33,753 nt of DNA from a virus. Location of the stretch: positions 1 through 33,753 of the IMG/VR virus record IMGVR_UViG_3300030380_004319; one strand, written 5' to 3'. Under the pieces are notes generated by a model. That model saw only the letters and a list, made by a program, of their open reading frames with translations. It was not told where the DNA came from and did no database searches. Position numbers and translations under genes: made by a program. Of this stretch, positions 2,841 to 12,592 are shown piece after piece (the stretch's first letter is position 1; each line of letters begins with the position of its first letter).

Positions 2841-3394
2841 AAAGTATTAAAGAAGATATACTTTCTTGGTCAAAAGACTTTCTTGAACTCCCAAATAAAC
2901 ATCTAAATAATTATTCTGTATGTCCTTTTGCTAAAAAAACACGACTAGATAATAAAATAAGAATAGTTGAAGATCATAACAAAAAAACATTACTTGATAC
3001 TGTTATTGCTGAGTGTAATAATTTTAACAAGTTAAATAATAAAATATGCGTTATTGCTAGTAATAATTTTTCTGTAAAGTCTAAAGAATTATCAGATTAT
3101 GTTGATACATTAAATTATCTATACGTTCCAACAAATGTATATTTAATGAATTCACATCCAGAAGATAACGAAGAAGAAATTAATTTTTTACAAGATACAG
3201 AATGGGATTGCGACAATCATTTTTTTATGATTTTAATACAATCATATAAAGAATTAGAAGATGCTAGTTTAAAACTGCAACAAACAAAATATTATAATAA
3301 TTGGCCAAAAAATTACTATGACAGCACAGTAAACAAAAGAAAACAATACAGAAAATTATATGAAAATAGTATTAGTAACGTGGTTGGACACTAA
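2837..3394 (+). CDS. Unknown protein with a CPFA motif (remotely DUF1415-like)
   Basis: 185 residues, GTG start at 2837 inside GTGA. Near the N-terminus is NNYSVCPFAKKTRLDNKIRI, then TLLDTVIAEC and a conserved-looking core. The CPFAK...I...LL pattern resembles the start of the DUF1415 family, but the His/Asn motifs expected later in that family are not evident, so any link is remote. No membrane segment. The C-terminus is basic and Tyr-rich. The next gene begins inside its last 35 nt. Function unknown. Confidence 0.75.
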   Translation: MKSIKEDILSWSKDFLELPNKHLNNYSVCPFAKKTRLDNKIRIVEDHNKKTLLDTVIAECNNFNKLNNKICVIASNNFSVKSKELSDYVDTLNYLYVPTNVYLMNSHPEDNEEEINFLQDTEWDCDNHFFMILIQSYKELEDASLKLQQTKYYNNWPKNYYDSTVNKRKQYRKLYENSISNVVGH

Positions 3395-3602
3395 CGAAAA
3401 TTCAGTTGGTGGCTGGATTACAAAAGAAGATTTAGATAAATCAGAAGTTTGTAGTGTTGATTCTTTGGGTTGGCTTTATAAAGAAACAAACGAATTTATA
3501 GTTATATTAGCTGATAAAGATACAAATAACGAGGACGACTTGTTTGGTAGATCACAAGTCATTCCTCGTGGAGTTATAAAAGATATTAAGTATTTAAGTT
3601 AA
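3360..3602 (+). CDS. Small conserved phage protein, function unknown
   Basis: 80 residues, MKIVLVTWLDTNENSVGGWI at the start, with DSLGWLYKETNEFIVILAD in the middle and a C-terminal VIPRGVIKDI. Compact, mostly beta by appearance, no membrane segment. The pattern V-T-W-x-D...GW...LGWL...V.LA is one I have seen in small uncharacterised phage proteins. It is the last gene of this rightward block. Its TAA at 3600-3602 overlaps the end of the converging leftward operon, with no terminator hairpin evident between them. Confidence 0.7.
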   Translation: MKIVLVTWLDTNENSVGGWITKEDLDKSEVCSVDSLGWLYKETNEFIVILADKDTNNEDDLFGRSQVIPRGVIKDIKYLS

Positions 3603-4369: not shown

Positions 4370-4578
4370 TATAAAATCCCCTTTGATTTTTTCCATTGTT
4401 TATAATCTCTCTCATATGCTCTTTTCCATACGTCTAAAAATCTTTCAATCCATTTAGTTTGTTTTTCAGTAATAGTTTTATTAAATAAAACTGAATGGGC
4501 ACTTTCTAAAGGTTGTAAATTTTTATTTTCTTCTAAATCTCCCCATCTATTATAAATACTAACAAGTTTATCATTCAT
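4369..4578 (-). CDS. Hypothetical helical protein
   Basis: 69 residues, charged, mainly helical, with TEKQTKWIERFLDVWKRAYE near the C-terminus (Trp-rich amphipathic helix). Linked by TAATG overlaps at both ends in the leftward operon. No family recognised. Confidence 0.6.
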   Translation of the reverse strand: MNDKLVSIYNRWGDLEENKNLQPLESAHSVLFNKTITEKQTKWIERFLDVWKRAYERDYKQWKKSKGIL

Positions 4579-4796
4579 TATAAAATCTCCTTTATTTGAT
4601 TTAATTTTAAAATAAAATTACCTCTAAAATCAAAACCACAAACATAAGCAATTTCAGAATTAGTTTTATTTTCGTAATCTTTTTTTGTTGGATAAGTGCT
4701 TTCAATCTTAAAAACAATTCCAACACAATCATTAATAATATTAAGTGTATCATGGGCGATAACTTGATCGCCCACTCTAGGATTTAATTTATTCAT
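4578..4796 (-). CDS. Hypothetical small beta protein
   Basis: 72 residues. It begins MNKLNPRVGDQVIAHD, a pattern often seen at the start of small SH3-like beta barrels (P.vGD.V), followed by alternating hydrophobics (CVGIVFKIES, IAYVCGFDFRGNFILKL). No catalytic motif. TAATG overlaps join it to both neighbours. The SH3-like fold is an inference from pattern only. Confidence 0.6.
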   Translation of the reverse strand: MNKLNPRVGDQVIAHDTLNIINDCVGIVFKIESTYPTKKDYENKTNSEIAYVCGFDFRGNFILKLNQIKEIL

Positions 4797-5002
4797 TAAT
4801 TAATCCTTGCACAAAAATTCCAATAATAATTATTACGTTTAACATCTTTAGATGATTGTACGCCTTTGCCTTGACAAGCATAACAAACACCTTGTTTACG
4901 TGGAACACCATTTACTGAGCCACCCCATTTAAAAGTGCCTGTGCCACTACATTGACCACAAACAGATTTTCCATTTTGTGATTTTTCATTAAAAGTTTTC
5001 AT
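4796..5002 (-). CDS. DnaJ-type zinc-finger small protein
   Basis: 68 residues from ATG 5002, preferred to an ATG at 5035 because AGGAG lies 8 nt upstream. It contains one pair of CxxCxGxG-like knuckles: CGQCSGTG and CYACQGKG, separated by about 16 residues. This is the DnaJ central zinc-binding pattern, enough to bind one Zn. No J domain, so it is not a co-chaperone by itself. Likely a small protein- or nucleic-acid-binding factor. It is the first gene after the 315-bp gap, so it may have its own promoter there. Confidence 0.75.
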   Translation of the reverse strand: MKTFNEKSQNGKSVCGQCSGTGTFKWGGSVNGVPRKQGVCYACQGKGVQSSKDVKRNNYYWNFCARIN

Positions 5003-5014
5003 AAATTCTCCTAT

Positions 5015-5227
5015 GAGTACAAAAGTTGAGTACACAAAGAGTACAAGAAATTTTTGCTTGTAATTACTTTTACTTGCTTATTTTTTGCACTCTTTAACTT
5101 GTTTATGCTTAGATTTTCTCGTATTTTCTTAAACATACGAGGAATTTATAACTTTACCAATGGTTTGTAAATAGCTTATTTTACTAAGGTAGGCCACAAA
5201 AAAAAGACATGAGTACATTATGAGTAC
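5015..5227. repeat. Five GAGTAC repeats in two phased clusters
   Basis: GAGTAC occurs at 5015, 5028, 5039, 5211 and 5222. Spacings within clusters are 13, 11 and 11 bp, close to one helical turn. With flanks, four of the five share GAGTACA and the consensus is tGAGTACA (TGTACTCa on the other strand). The first cluster lies 10-40 bp before the RBS of the gene starting at 5002. Another TGTACTCA occurs on the plus strand at 13950-13957, in the pre-TerL gap. This reads as a protein-binding array. Confidence 0.6.
5177..5194. repeat. 18-bp motif, copy A (TATTTTWCTAAGGTAGGC)
   Basis: Matches 13961-13978 at 17 of 18 positions (A versus T at position 7). Both copies lie in non-coding gaps, with GTACTC/GAGTAC elements within about 20 bp. 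It is richer in G/C than its surroundings. Possible phage promoter, operator or recognition site. Confidence 0.6.
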
Positions 5228-5317
5228 GATTTGTAATCACGAAAATTCTGGCAGCTTAGATATTTTATCATTAGCTGTTTTAGGCATCAAAAGAATAATA
5301 TTTAGATAATTTTCCTT

Positions 5318-5533
5318 TTATTTTCCGTTGCTCGATTTTAAACATGATAATTCTACAATTCTTTCCATATCGTTTTTTGTAAAGCGTTGGCGCTTTCCAA
5401 TATATCTGTTTAAGGATTTCTCCTCAGGAAATCTTTCCTTTAGAGATTTGAGAAAATCGTAACAAGTTCTGCTTGAAATACCAAGTTCTTTACATAGATC
5501 ATCTCTAGTAAAAAGTCTATCCATTAGTTCCAT
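5318..5533 (-). CDS. Small helix-turn-helix protein (MerR/excisionase-like)
   Basis: 71 residues. LFTRDDLCKELGISSRTCYD at 7-26 is a helix-turn-helix of the MerR/Xis/helix_turn_helix_17 kind, followed by a basic wing (NRYIGKRQRFTKNDM). Probably a DNA-binding regulator or excisionase-like architectural protein. With no integrase visible, a regulator is more likely. It is the last gene before the repeat-bearing gap, so it is a candidate to bind there. Start at 5533 by TAATG overlap, with AAGGGGGA upstream. Confidence 0.65.
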   Translation of the reverse strand: MELMDRLFTRDDLCKELGISSRTCYDFLKSLKERFPEEKSLNRYIGKRQRFTKNDMERIVELSCLKSSNGK

Positions 5534-6051
5534 TAGTAATTCCCCCTTATAATGTCTTGATTTTCATCTTCATTTTTTGCTTGTTCTACTTCAATAACTC
5601 TTGCTCTTAGCTCGTCTAATTCTTTTCTTTCTTTTTCTAAATATGGATACGGATTAGAAGTCGGATGAAACAATGCTTGATTTTCTGGTAATCCTCTTTT
5701 AGCTAATTTTTCTTCAATAGATTTATATTTTTCTTCATCTTTACGTTGATGTCCTAAATATAATTTTTCGCATAATTCTTTAGAACTTAACAATACATCT
5801 TGATAATCAGTAAAAACTATAGACCATTGTATTATTCTCATTTGACTAAGCGTTATAGATATTCTTTTTTTAAAATGATGTACTGTATTTATATATGCTT
5901 TACTTAAATACTCTTCCATTTTTGGCTTACCTAATATTCTTTTTTCGCCATCAATAAATTCTAATTCCCATAATGGTTGTTCATGTAATCCAGTTTTTGG
6001 ATTATTTCCGCCTTCATCTAATTGTATTATTTTAGTTATTTCTTTACTCAT
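5533..6051 (-). CDS. Hypothetical protein with C-terminal coiled coil
   Basis: 172 residues from ATG 6051, chosen over 6099 because GGAG precedes it by 6 nt and it overlaps the upstream stop by 8 nt. A mixed N-terminal part (HEQPLWELEFIDGEKRILGK) is followed by helices and a charged coiled coil near the end (EKERKELDELRARVIEVEQA). No family recognised. Confidence 0.65.
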   Translation of the reverse strand: MSKEITKIIQLDEGGNNPKTGLHEQPLWELEFIDGEKRILGKPKMEEYLSKAYINTVHHFKKRISITLSQMRIIQWSIVFTDYQDVLLSSKELCEKLYLGHQRKDEEKYKSIEEKLAKRGLPENQALFHPTSNPYPYLEKERKELDELRARVIEVEQAKNEDENQDIIRGNY

Positions 6052-6361
6052 AATTCTCCATATCTGCTTTTGAGGAACGTATATAAAAAAAATCTTCATA
6101 CTCAGGATGCTCTTTCATAAACAAACGTGAGTAAAAAGGTTTATAGTTATTATTTATTTTGTAATCTTTATCGTTAGAAACAACGCTTGTTTCCCAACGA
6201 ATACGATTAATTATCATTTCACTTGATAATTTTTTATGACCACGATTAATTGCTTGAAACGTAAATTGTTTAAACAATTTATAAATTACAGGGTTTTCTC
6301 TATGAAACTTACTAAATTTAGATTCAATCGGATCAATAAAACTTAATTGTGCTTGTATCAT
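6044..6361 (-). CDS. Conserved small phage protein, function unknown
   Basis: 105 residues. The pattern FHRENPVIYKLFKQFTFQAI ... INRIRWET ... NNNYKPFYSRLFMKEHPEYE is one I recognise from many small phage and prophage proteins of unknown function. The repeated aromatic/basic residues suggest nucleic-acid binding. It begins in a TAATG overlap with its upstream neighbour. Confidence 0.72.
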   Translation of the reverse strand: MIQAQLSFIDPIESKFSKFHRENPVIYKLFKQFTFQAINRGHKKLSSEMIINRIRWETSVVSNDKDYKINNNYKPFYSRLFMKEHPEYEDFFYIRSSKADMENYE

Positions 6362-9723: not shown

Positions 9724-9756
9724 AAAAAAAAAGAGAGGGAACTTATTTCCCTCTCT
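9724..9756 (-). terminator. Leftward intrinsic terminator
   Basis: On the minus strand GAGAGGGAAA-taa-g-TTCCCTCTC forms a stem of at least nine pairs (arms 9747-9755 and 9733-9741, plus one A-T) and is followed by nine consecutive T (9732-9724). This is a textbook rho-independent terminator for leftward RNA. On the plus strand there is no U-run, so it acts mainly leftward. No leftward gene lies to its right, which implies either a short RNA or insulation from antisense transcription. Confidence 0.85.
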
Positions 9757-9773
9757 CTCCAGCAACATTAATA

Positions 9774-9927: not shown

Positions 9928-10197
9928 ATGAGAGTTCATTGTAATTTATGTAATCAAGAAAAAGATTTACAAGTTACGCTTACAACAAAACAACATAAAG
10001 TTTTTAATTTTATAAAAAATTACAAAGTAAAATATAAAAAATCGCCAACATATAGAGAGATTGCAAGTAATTGCGATTTTAAAAGCACAAGTAACGTTGA
10101 TAGATACATTTATTTATTAAAGAAAAAAAATTTAATAGATGTCTCTCCATATACTCATAGATCAATACAAATTTTAAAGGAACCAATTAGTGAATAG
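9928..10197 (+). CDS. LexA-type winged-helix regulator without peptidase domain
   Basis: 89 residues. From about residue 17, VTLTTKQHKVFNFIKNYKVK then KSPTYREIASNCDF, STSNVDRYIYLLKKKNLI and a C-terminal RSIQIL match the LexA DNA-binding domain order (E. coli: LT.RQ.EV...I, PPTRAEIA, LG, SPNAAEEHL, KALARKG.IEI, RGIRLL). The Ser-Lys autocleavage domain is absent, so RecA-triggered cleavage is not expected. An N-terminal CNLC pair may bind metal. No good RBS precedes ATG 9928. The gene overlaps the ABC-GNAT gene and is the likely controller of the divergent region. Confidence 0.8.
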   Translation: MRVHCNLCNQEKDLQVTLTTKQHKVFNFIKNYKVKYKKSPTYREIASNCDFKSTSNVDRYIYLLKKKNLIDVSPYTHRSIQILKEPISE

Positions 10198-11308
10198 TTT
10201 ATTTCAAGACTATGAGCTAAAACAAACTAAAGAATTAATTAGTAAAGTTAATGTTAATGATATTACAAAAGAAATTAGTACAGCTTTTGATTATGAATTT
10301 GATGGAAAAACTAAATTTGAGTTGCCATTATTTAGAAAGCCAAAAGATGATTTTAATATTGGATTAATAGTTGGCCCCTCAGGAAGTGGAAAGTCTAATA
10401 TATTAAAAGAATTTAATGAAGAAGAAAACATTAAATGGAAACATGACGAAGCTGTATGTTCACATTTTAGTAATCATGATGAAGCAATTGATAAATTAAG
10501 TGCTGTTGGATTTAATAGTATTCCAAGTTGGTTAAAACCCTATCATGTTTTATCTACTGGCGAAAAATTTAGAGTTGATCTTGCAAAAAGATTAAAAGAC
10601 AATGCAGTAATAGATGAGTTTACAAGTGTTGTAGATCGTAATGTTGCTAAGTCTTGTGCAAATGCACTAGGAAAATATATAAAAAAACAAAATATTAAGA
10701 ACGTTGTTTTTGCTAGTTGTCATTACGATATTATAGATTGGCTACAACCCGATTGGGTTTTTGACACTACATCCAACAAAGTTGTTGGAAGGAGGTGGGA
10801 AAGGCGATCCAAGATCGTTTTGGAAATATTTCCTTGTAGAGTCGAAATATGGCCATTGTTCAGGGAACATCACTATCTCACACAAGACATTAATAAAGGT
10901 GCTAGATGCTGGCTTGCAATCTGGAATGGATACCCAGTTGGATTTGAATCAGCAATCCCTCTTCCAACAGGAACAATAAAAGAAAAATGTTGGAGAGAAC
11001 ATAGACTTGTGATTTTGCCAGACTTTCAAGGATTAAGTATTGGCGCTAAATTTTCAGAATGGTTAGGAGAGTCATATAAAAGACAAAACATCAGATTTTT
11101 TAGCAAAACAGCACATCCAAGACTTGGCGAATATAGAGAGTTTAGCGATAAATGGAAAGCAACATCAAGTAATAAAAAAAATTTAAGTAAAGCTTATATG
11201 AATGATCTTGATAGAGTTAGATCGGGCGGAAATTTAATACAAAATGAGAATTCTATAATGAGACATATGAATAGAGTTTGTTATTCTCATGAATACGTTG
11301 GAGATTAA
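10190..11308 (+). CDS. ABC-type ATPase fused to a Mom-like GNAT domain
   Basis: 372 residues, GTG start inside the previous gene with AAAGGA upstream. Residues 1-200 are an ABC-type ATPase: Walker A GPSGSGKS (62-69), signature LSTGE (121-125), Walker B VIDEF (140-144), switch His H178 (ASCHYD). Residues about 205-372 resemble the GNAT fold, with FREHHYL (224-230), CWLAIWNGYPVGF (240-252) and HRLVILPDFQGLSIGAKFSE (271-290), the last holding the acyl-CoA-binding loop Q280-G-x-S-I-G. The order matches the family I recall as COG2401 (ABC ATPase plus acetyltransferase). Similar GNAT domains include phage Mu Mom, which modifies adenines. No transmembrane helices, so not a transporter. A DNA- or RNA-modifying role is an inference. 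Confidence 0.8.
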   Translation: MNSLFQDYELKQTKELISKVNVNDITKEISTAFDYEFDGKTKFELPLFRKPKDDFNIGLIVGPSGSGKSNILKEFNEEENIKWKHDEAVCSHFSNHDEAIDKLSAVGFNSIPSWLKPYHVLSTGEKFRVDLAKRLKDNAVIDEFTSVVDRNVAKSCANALGKYIKKQNIKNVVFASCHYDIIDWLQPDWVFDTTSNKVVGRRWERRSKIVLEIFPCRVEIWPLFREHHYLTQDINKGARCWLAIWNGYPVGFESAIPLPTGTIKEKCWREHRLVILPDFQGLSIGAKFSEWLGESYKRQNIRFFSKTAHPRLGEYREFSDKWKATSSNKKNLSKAYMNDLDRVRSGGNLIQNENSIMRHMNRVCYSHEYVGD

Positions 11309-11309
11309 A

Positions 11310-12095
11310 ATGAATATTAAACTTCCATGGACTAAATTATATTACAGCGATTTTTTAAATGGTTGTAGAGGACTAACACATCAACAACGAGGTCTTTATT
11401 TTACGTTGTTTTGCTTGGCTGGTATAGAAAATGGTCGTGGTTTACCTAATAATTTTGATGAATTATGTCATAGTGTAAATATTTATGACAAAAACCCAGA
11501 AGTTGTTGAACAGTTAAAAGCAGATTTAACATTAGTATTAAACAAAAAGTTTGTTTTAGTTGAAAATCGCTATCATAATCAAAGACAATTAGACGATTTT
11601 AACAGCGAAATACAAACAATTATTAATAAAAGTAATGCTGGCAAGATTTCTGTTAACAACAAACGCTTAACAAAAGCTAAACAGAAGCTCAACACAGTAT
11701 CTGAATCTGAATCTATATCTATATTTAATGATATAATATGGCCAAACTTAAAATTTAAAAAAGGGTCAAAAGTTGTTGCTCTTAACTCATATTTAAAAAA
11801 AGCATTTGATATAGATGAAAAAACACTAATTCAAAAATATAATGAACTTTGTTCAAATACTGCTGATCCTAAGTTTATTCCTCATTTTTCAACGTGGTTA
11901 AATCAAGAACGTTGGGAAGAAGAAATAGTTGTTAAAGAAGAAAAAGACGAATTTGGCATACAACCAAAAGACTCATATCGTAAATACGTTATTTTTGTAA
12001 AAAAAGGAATAAGAAGCACAGCAATTTCTGATGATATGGTTAAGGAAATGAGAAAAGAGGGACTTATTACAGAAGAAGAATATAAGGCATGGTAA
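11310..12095 (+). CDS. DUF1376 replication-type protein
   Basis: 261 residues from ATG 11310, chosen over 11289 because it follows the ABC-GNAT stop by 1 nt and has TTGGAG upstream. The N-terminal domain (PWTKLYYSDFLNGCRGLTHQ, then RGLYFTLFCLA) is DUF1376, a winged-helix-like domain of phage replication proteins that function like initiators. A polar linker (140-165) precedes a second helical domain ending PKFIPHFSTWLNQERWEEE, a typical C-terminal signature of phage replisome-organiser proteins. Probably the phage's own replication initiator or helicase loader, recruiting host enzymes. Confidence 0.8.
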   Translation: MNIKLPWTKLYYSDFLNGCRGLTHQQRGLYFTLFCLAGIENGRGLPNNFDELCHSVNIYDKNPEVVEQLKADLTLVLNKKFVLVENRYHNQRQLDDFNSEIQTIINKSNAGKISVNNKRLTKAKQKLNTVSESESISIFNDIIWPNLKFKKGSKVVALNSYLKKAFDIDEKTLIQKYNELCSNTADPKFIPHFSTWLNQERWEEEIVVKEEKDEFGIQPKDSYRKYVIFVKKGIRSTAISDDMVKEMRKEGLITEEEYKAW

Positions 12096-12592
12096 AGAAA
12101 AATAAGAAAAAAAAAGCTAAAATTTCAGATTATGGCGCACAAACAATAATAAAAATAGATGGAAAATTAATACGTGTAGTAGATCAACAAGAATTTAGAT
12201 TAACTTTTGGAAGTGCAACTGGAGACAGAAGAATAGAAAAAGTGCATAATTCAGTATTACAAAATTATTATGCTAGAGATTTATTAGACATTACGAATAG
12301 AGATAGAAATCAATTACGTTATATTGCTGGAAATAAATTTGAAATTACAAGTTATCACGCTGGATTACAGCAAAACGTAACAATGCAATATAAAGATAGA
12401 TCGCAAGGATCAATGGAAGAATTTAATACAAATCATTTAGATTCTTTAAATAAATTTAGAGAAGCTTATAAATATCTTGGTAATTTAAGTAAGATAGCAT
12501 GGCACGTAATTATAGATAATAAACCAGCAAAAAAACAAATGAATGAATTTAGAGAAAGTTTAGACGTGTTAATAGATTTCTATAAATTATAA
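12089..12592 (+). CDS. DUF6456-like phage protein
   Basis: 167 residues. A Lys-rich start (MVKKNKKKKAK) is followed by a beta-like segment and a helical C-terminal half: RNQLRYIAGNKFEITSYHAG, LDSLNKFREAYKYLGN and FRESLDVLIDFYKL. The layout (helix entered by a basic A-G motif, then a helix pair ending in -hYgL/K) resembles DUF6456; the family call is tentative. Overlaps the DUF1376 gene at ATGGTAA. Last gene before the structured intergenic element. Confidence 0.65.
   Translation: MVKKNKKKKAKISDYGAQTIIKIDGKLIRVVDQQEFRLTFGSATGDRRIEKVHNSVLQNYYARDLLDITNRDRNQLRYIAGNKFEITSYHAGLQQNVTMQYKDRSQGSMEEFNTNHLDSLNKFREAYKYLGNLSKIAWHVIIDNKPAKKQMNEFRESLDVLIDFYKL

Follow-up and report, generated by a model that had tools for sequence, protein, structure and literature searches.

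A predicted ABC ATPase-GNAT acyltransferase of a probable SAR11 phage shares its genome position with DNA methyltransferases

Results

The window analysed here, which is the whole 33,753-base IMG/VR virus record IMGVR_UViG_3300030380_004319, encodes on its plus strand (10190-11308) a 372-aa protein that joins an ABC-type ATPase to a GNAT domain. Because its gene is placed exactly where relatives of this phage carry a DNA methyltransferase, the protein probably decorates phage DNA. We propose that it is a soluble, ATP-gated and acyl-CoA-dependent acyltransferase of DNA bases that protects the phage genome from restriction, and we regard this as probable, with considerable room for doubt. The idea of DNA modification had been put forward in an earlier note on this DNA, and it gains support from slot swapping with DNA methyltransferases, from linkage to ParB-like genes in other phages and from an adjoining Mom gene in the nearest relatives.

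The phage has a podovirus-like gene set and its terminase shares 50% identity with the terminase of Pelagibacter phage HTVC010P, so that a SAR11 host is likely. A terminator-like hairpin with a T tail, above shuffle expectation, is located on the minus strand at 9728-9760, between the leftward and rightward arms. A promoter scan upstream of the rightward operon returned no plus-strand site, and the count was below that in shuffled sequences.

The rightward operon is opened by a gene for an 89-aa winged-helix (HTH) protein (9928-10197, plus strand), which has a CxxC near its N-terminus. The earlier note described it as a LexA-type repressor. The LexA winged-helix domain is indeed present (PF01726, LexA_DNA_bind, E 1.6e-10), but the protein covers only positions 3-71 of the LexA model, which has 203 positions. 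A full LexA repressor was rejected, since at 89 aa the protein holds the DNA-binding domain only and no S24 autoprotease domain. The ABC-GNAT frame begins with GTG, is preceded by AAAGGA and overlaps the HTH frame by 8 nt, so the 3' end of the HTH gene carries both the ribosome-binding site and the overlap serving its successor. This agrees with the translationally coupled pair proposed before, but not with a specific coupling. In pelagiphage relatives the HTH gene is also kept where it is followed by a C5 methyltransferase gene or directly by a DUF1376 gene, and the same 8-nt overlap is possible with all three successors. Translational coupling is thus a property of the HTH gene and not of the pair, and because the HTH gene is retained when the next position holds a methyltransferase or nothing, it is no dedicated partner of the ABC-GNAT protein. 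A search with the HTH protein alone recovered one relative contig only.

In the N-terminal half of the fusion, alignment of homologs located the Walker A motif GPSGSGKS (aa 62-69, 10373-10396), the ABC signature LSTGE (aa 121-125, 10550-10564), the Walker B motif VIDEF with the catalytic Glu143 (aa 140-144, 10607-10621) and the H-loop His178 (10721-10723), all on the plus strand. These motifs were invariant or nearly so among 32 homologs, and in a larger set the signature and the H-loop were each kept in 168 of 169. Pfam gave weak matches to ABC/AAA P-loop models for this half. In the AlphaFold2 model (mean pLDDT 87.6 for the whole protein), residues 10-204 form an ABC nucleotide-binding domain, of which residues 10-202 match 1l2t (Z 13.3). 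The Walker A motif and the signature are separated by 54 residues in the window copy and by 54-67 residues across 168 homologs, while the spacing in transporter ATPases is about 95-105 residues. We rejected a membrane transporter ATPase, because this spacing is short and none of the neighbouring genes searched matched a permease. A PDB sequence search with the full protein found no near relative. In Streptococcus and Lactococcus phages (L085, L087 and L092), the two halves are separate adjacent genes, and annotations often call the separate ABC half an ABC iron siderophore transporter.

The C-terminal half (aa 205-372, 10802-11305, plus strand) matched Acetyltransf_1 (PF00583) above the gathering cut-off at aa 219-300. 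Structure prediction, which the earlier note had suggested for this half, gave a GNAT domain at aa 208-372 that matched solved GNAT structures at Z 12-14 (1y9k, Z 14.2, over residues 210-371). Most of its structural neighbours are N-acetyltransferases of proteins, RimI and Naa50 among them. Among the 32 homologs, the HYL residues 228-230, the LP-D-x-Q-G loop and W322 were invariant or nearly so; H228, Y229 and L230 belong to the HHYL motif (aa 227-230, 10868-10879, plus strand). The CoA-binding loop reads LPDFQGLSIG (aa 276-285, 11015-11044, plus strand). The family consensus QGLGIG fits the CoA pyrophosphate loop [QR]xxGx[GA], and the window copy has QGLSIG, with Ser283 in the place of a Gly found in more than 90% of homologs. 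The description in the earlier note of one 372-aa protein with a full set of ABC motifs and a GNAT part was borne out by both reading frames, the motifs, PF00583 and the AlphaFold2 model.

The same note had called the C-terminal half Mom-like, and this holds for the fold but not for the sequence. Profile comparison by hhalign with three Mom groups gave E 0.052, 0.5 and 0.48, none of them significant, while a positive control of Mom against Mom gave E 1.6e-17; direct Mom homology was rejected on this comparison. The Pfam search of the protein gave no match to PF25680 (Mom), and a sequence search for a solved Mom relative came up empty. A Mom model was among the BFVD matches (E 3.2e-4), as is expected because the GNAT fold is shared. 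On these profile comparisons, the C-terminal half is classed as a GNAT and not a Mom, with only the fold common to both.

The whole protein matched phrog_11143, a widespread family of unknown function, over aa 18-371 (E 1.9e-115). It is 35-82% identical to its relatives, with homology across both halves. Cultured phages that carry the family include Lactococcus P335, Leptospira biflexa phage LE3, and Gordonia Axumite and Jace.

To the right, the gene is bordered by a DUF1376/primosomal-type gene (11289-12095, plus strand; profile matches and synteny) and then by a conserved 167-aa gene that serves as a synteny anchor across relatives (12089-12592, plus strand). Relatives were fetched with two anchors, Mom and the 167-aa neighbour, and all locus counts in this study are counts of contigs, several of them closely related, not of independent events. 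The order HTH, slot, DUF1376 and 167-aa gene is conserved in the pelagiphage relatives. The slot holds the ABC-GNAT gene in the window, L001, L002 (one contig with L198) and L003. A C5-cytosine DNA methyltransferase gene fills it in L175 and L176 (PF00145, E 9e-48 and 1e-44) and, by similarity to these two, in L201, L202 and the partial L199 and L200. In L205, L206, L207, L208 and L213 it is empty, so its contents are dispensable. Apart from Mom insertions, no other type of gene was found in the slot of those fetched relatives in which both the HTH and the DUF1376 gene are visible.

In the nearest relatives, a Mom gene lies as a clean insertion between ABC-GNAT and DUF1376 (L001:6122-6592 and L003:6116-6586). 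It overlaps the ABC-GNAT stop and matches phrog_1384 (E 2.6e-32), with PF25680 just under the cut-off (E about 1e-5). The window lacks this insertion, and the two flanks abut.

Further genes were noticed around these loci. A Mom closely similar to the L001/L003 copy sits after DUF1376 in the methyltransferase-bearing L175 and L176. As additional DNA-modification genes before the terminase, L176 carries a ParB-N6/N4 methylase fusion (4497-5744) and L175 carries a frame with a DPPW motif that by eye resembles MT-A70 (5593-6132). In the distant relative L212, a frame that by eye is PAPS-reductase-like (229-1137) adjoins the 167-aa gene, with a Mom gene downstream (3050-3559).

Outside the marine clade, a ParB-like gene lies directly upstream of the ABC-GNAT gene in 75 of 92 loci, against none of 62 inside it. 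This layout is usual there, not universal, and was seen in phages of Gordonia, Leptospira, Pasteurella and Streptococcus; many contigs of planctomycetes and actinobacteria share it. For the window copy the argument from ParB is indirect, because its clade has no adjacent ParB. The profile that these ParB proteins match is phrog_498, a fusion of ParB with a DNA methyltransferase, and the match falls in its N-terminal part. We took a census of the best 80 loci in viral contigs fetched by the ParB head alone. In 41 of them ParB is apparently fused to an N6/N4 methylase, a count defined by a DPPY-type motif and length, and a profile check placed N6/N4 methylase frames in 45 of the 80 loci. The 39 separate ParB genes are followed by Mom (20), an N6/N4 methyltransferase (6), a C5 methyltransferase (3) or ABC-GNAT (3), among others.

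A natural effector swap is seen in two Streptococcus prophages. Javan523 and Javan128 share 93.6% DNA identity up to about ParB codon 119. Past this point, Javan523 continues into a short tail followed by the ABC and GNAT genes, whereas Javan128 continues into an N6/N4 methylase, and the terminase lies downstream in both. A conserved tail of some 50 residues, with the pattern VIxECxxExxQxxVYxxLxExGxKCRLSxL, closes the ParB proteins upstream of ABC-GNAT (L068:65-598, L085:3375-3890 and similar ones) and overlaps the start of the ABC frame. Because the methyltransferase replaces this tail in Javan128, the tail may be a docking part for ABC-GNAT.

Replication genes (AEP primase, UvrD helicase, DNA pol A) or terminase genes are frequent neighbours of ABC-GNAT elsewhere. 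An ASCH-domain gene was found near ABC-GNAT in 14 loci (including L085:5002-5379, L092:4979-5347, L124:6513-6965 and L086:6217-6675) whereas the 80 ParB loci had none, in a comparison whose search seeds were taken from ABC-GNAT loci. The nucleophile of E. coli YqfB is Thr24 in K-x-x-T-x-R (PMC6972931), and the ASCH proteins near ABC-GNAT have Glu at this position (K-x-x-E-x-R). Owing to the origin of the seeds and to this replacement, we rejected these neighbours as a clue to an N4-acylcytosine hydrolase; since the nucleophilic Thr is absent, the ASCH protein may be a reader and not a deacylase. In one marine contig, a 2OG-Fe(II) oxygenase gene lies shortly upstream of ABC-GNAT (L066:4307-4864).

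Discussion

The ABC-GNAT gene is interchangeable with genes of DNA-modifying enzymes at two kinds of locus, and in its family the ATPase motifs and a CoA loop are conserved, the loop with one replacement in the window copy. In the mechanism we favour, the ABC half would dimerise around ATP and link the binding or hydrolysis of ATP with DNA engagement or with turnover, thereby gating or positioning the GNAT half. The GNAT half would move an acyl group from acyl-CoA onto a base of the phage DNA, at an exocyclic amino group, and the acylated base would shield this DNA from host restriction. For its recruitment or targeting, the protein probably relies on a ParB-like adaptor in most relatives. In the marine clade, which lacks an adjacent ParB, it would be expressed in the rightward operon behind the HTH gene. 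The Ser in the CoA loop of the window copy speaks against acylation of DNA bases, as do the structural neighbours of the modelled GNAT half, most of which act on proteins. A narrower version is more speculative, and we would not bet on it at even odds: the product may be an N-acylated cytosine or adenine, a base not yet described, in probable SAR11 phages, with ATP hydrolysis licensing each transfer and with the ParB of the relatives acting as a general adaptor for methyltransferases, Mom or the acyltransferase.

The gene context fits DNA and RNA substrates alike, and an RNA or protein substrate is possible. TmcA, the best-known enzyme for nucleic acids that combines an ATPase with a GNAT, acts on tRNA (ac4C), and by this precedent the ABC-GNAT protein could acylate tRNA or mRNA and so take over or protect translation; a gene annotated as a tRNA methyltransferase follows ABC-GNAT in Gordonia phage Axumite. 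We find this unlikely, because the loci swap with DNA methyltransferases and Mom and not with RNA enzymes, the frequent neighbours are replication or terminase genes, and the ATPase of TmcA is of the helicase type, not ABC. Acetylation of a host protein such as RNA polymerase, which would make the protein a takeover factor like Rac of the phiKMV group, seems less likely again. There is precedent for phage GNATs that act on RNA polymerase (PMC7824862), and the solved folds closest to the GNAT half include RimI and Naa50. However, similarity among GNAT folds is generic, and such a role leaves the swaps with C5 and N6/N4 methyltransferases and Mom, as well as the ParB partner, unexplained.

It is also conceivable that the slot is a mere cargo hotspot and that the protein has an unrelated role, either in superinfection exclusion or in anti-defence by modifying a small molecule or a defence protein. 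The slot is empty in some relatives, and PADLOC returned weak matches to defence ATPase models. However, these matches cover only short stretches of the ATPase, the slot holds DNA-modification genes or nothing in relatives with both flanks visible, and the ParB linkage is a second and independent association. We consider this the least probable of the three alternatives, and base acylation of phage DNA remains our preferred reading.

The earlier note took this to be an undescribed system. The general idea is already known: according to PMC7824862, which names phage pT24, Iyer et al. (2013) predicted that a GNAT with an ABC ATPase makes an acyl modification, as yet uncharacterised, on a DNA base, and a homolog of the window protein is present in Tenacibaculum phage pT24 (40% identity over 85% of the query). 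The window protein is a ParB-less, HTH-coupled member of this predicted class. The literature searched yielded no experimental test of the 2013 prediction, no measured modified base for any ABC-GNAT carrier and no paper on COG2401. New here are the exchange with C5 methyltransferases in the pelagiphage slot, the adjoining Mom insertion, the census of ParB partners and the Streptococcus swap pair, although the extent of ParB linkage given by Iyer et al. (2013) may overlap with ours.

If our proposal is true, an acyl-type and ATP-controlled DNA modification joins the counter-defence of phages, in a lineage of pelagiphages to which the abundant HTVC010P is related. The swap pairs, in the pelagiphage HTH slot and between Javan523 and Javan128, offer matched comparisons of a methyltransferase with ABC-GNAT with the same adaptor and genome position, and this evidence makes the published family prediction much easier to test.

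Among known systems, TmcA, the tRNA(Met) cytidine acetyltransferase, resembles the predicted role of ABC-GNAT in that an ATPase and a GNAT act together on a nucleic-acid base. TmcA differs in its helicase-type ATPase and its RNA substrate. Mom (the phage Mu Mom family, PF25680, phrog_1384) has the GNAT fold in common with ABC-GNAT, as well as the ParB partner and the pelagiphage operon as contexts; however, the Mom groups aligned here lack a QxxGxG-type CoA loop and have no ATPase domain. The ParB-fused N6/N4 methyltransferases of phrog_498 have the same ParB head and, in Streptococcus prophages, the same locus as ABC-GNAT, but their effector is a methyltransferase and not an ABC with a GNAT, and the window has no adjacent ParB. 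The pT24 system belongs to the same protein family and has, as far as PMC7824862 describes it, the same predicted role. In pT24, a jumbo phage, it is annotated as two genes, whereas the window has one fused gene behind an HTH gene, on a 33.8-kb pelagiphage contig and in a slot shared with C5 methyltransferases.
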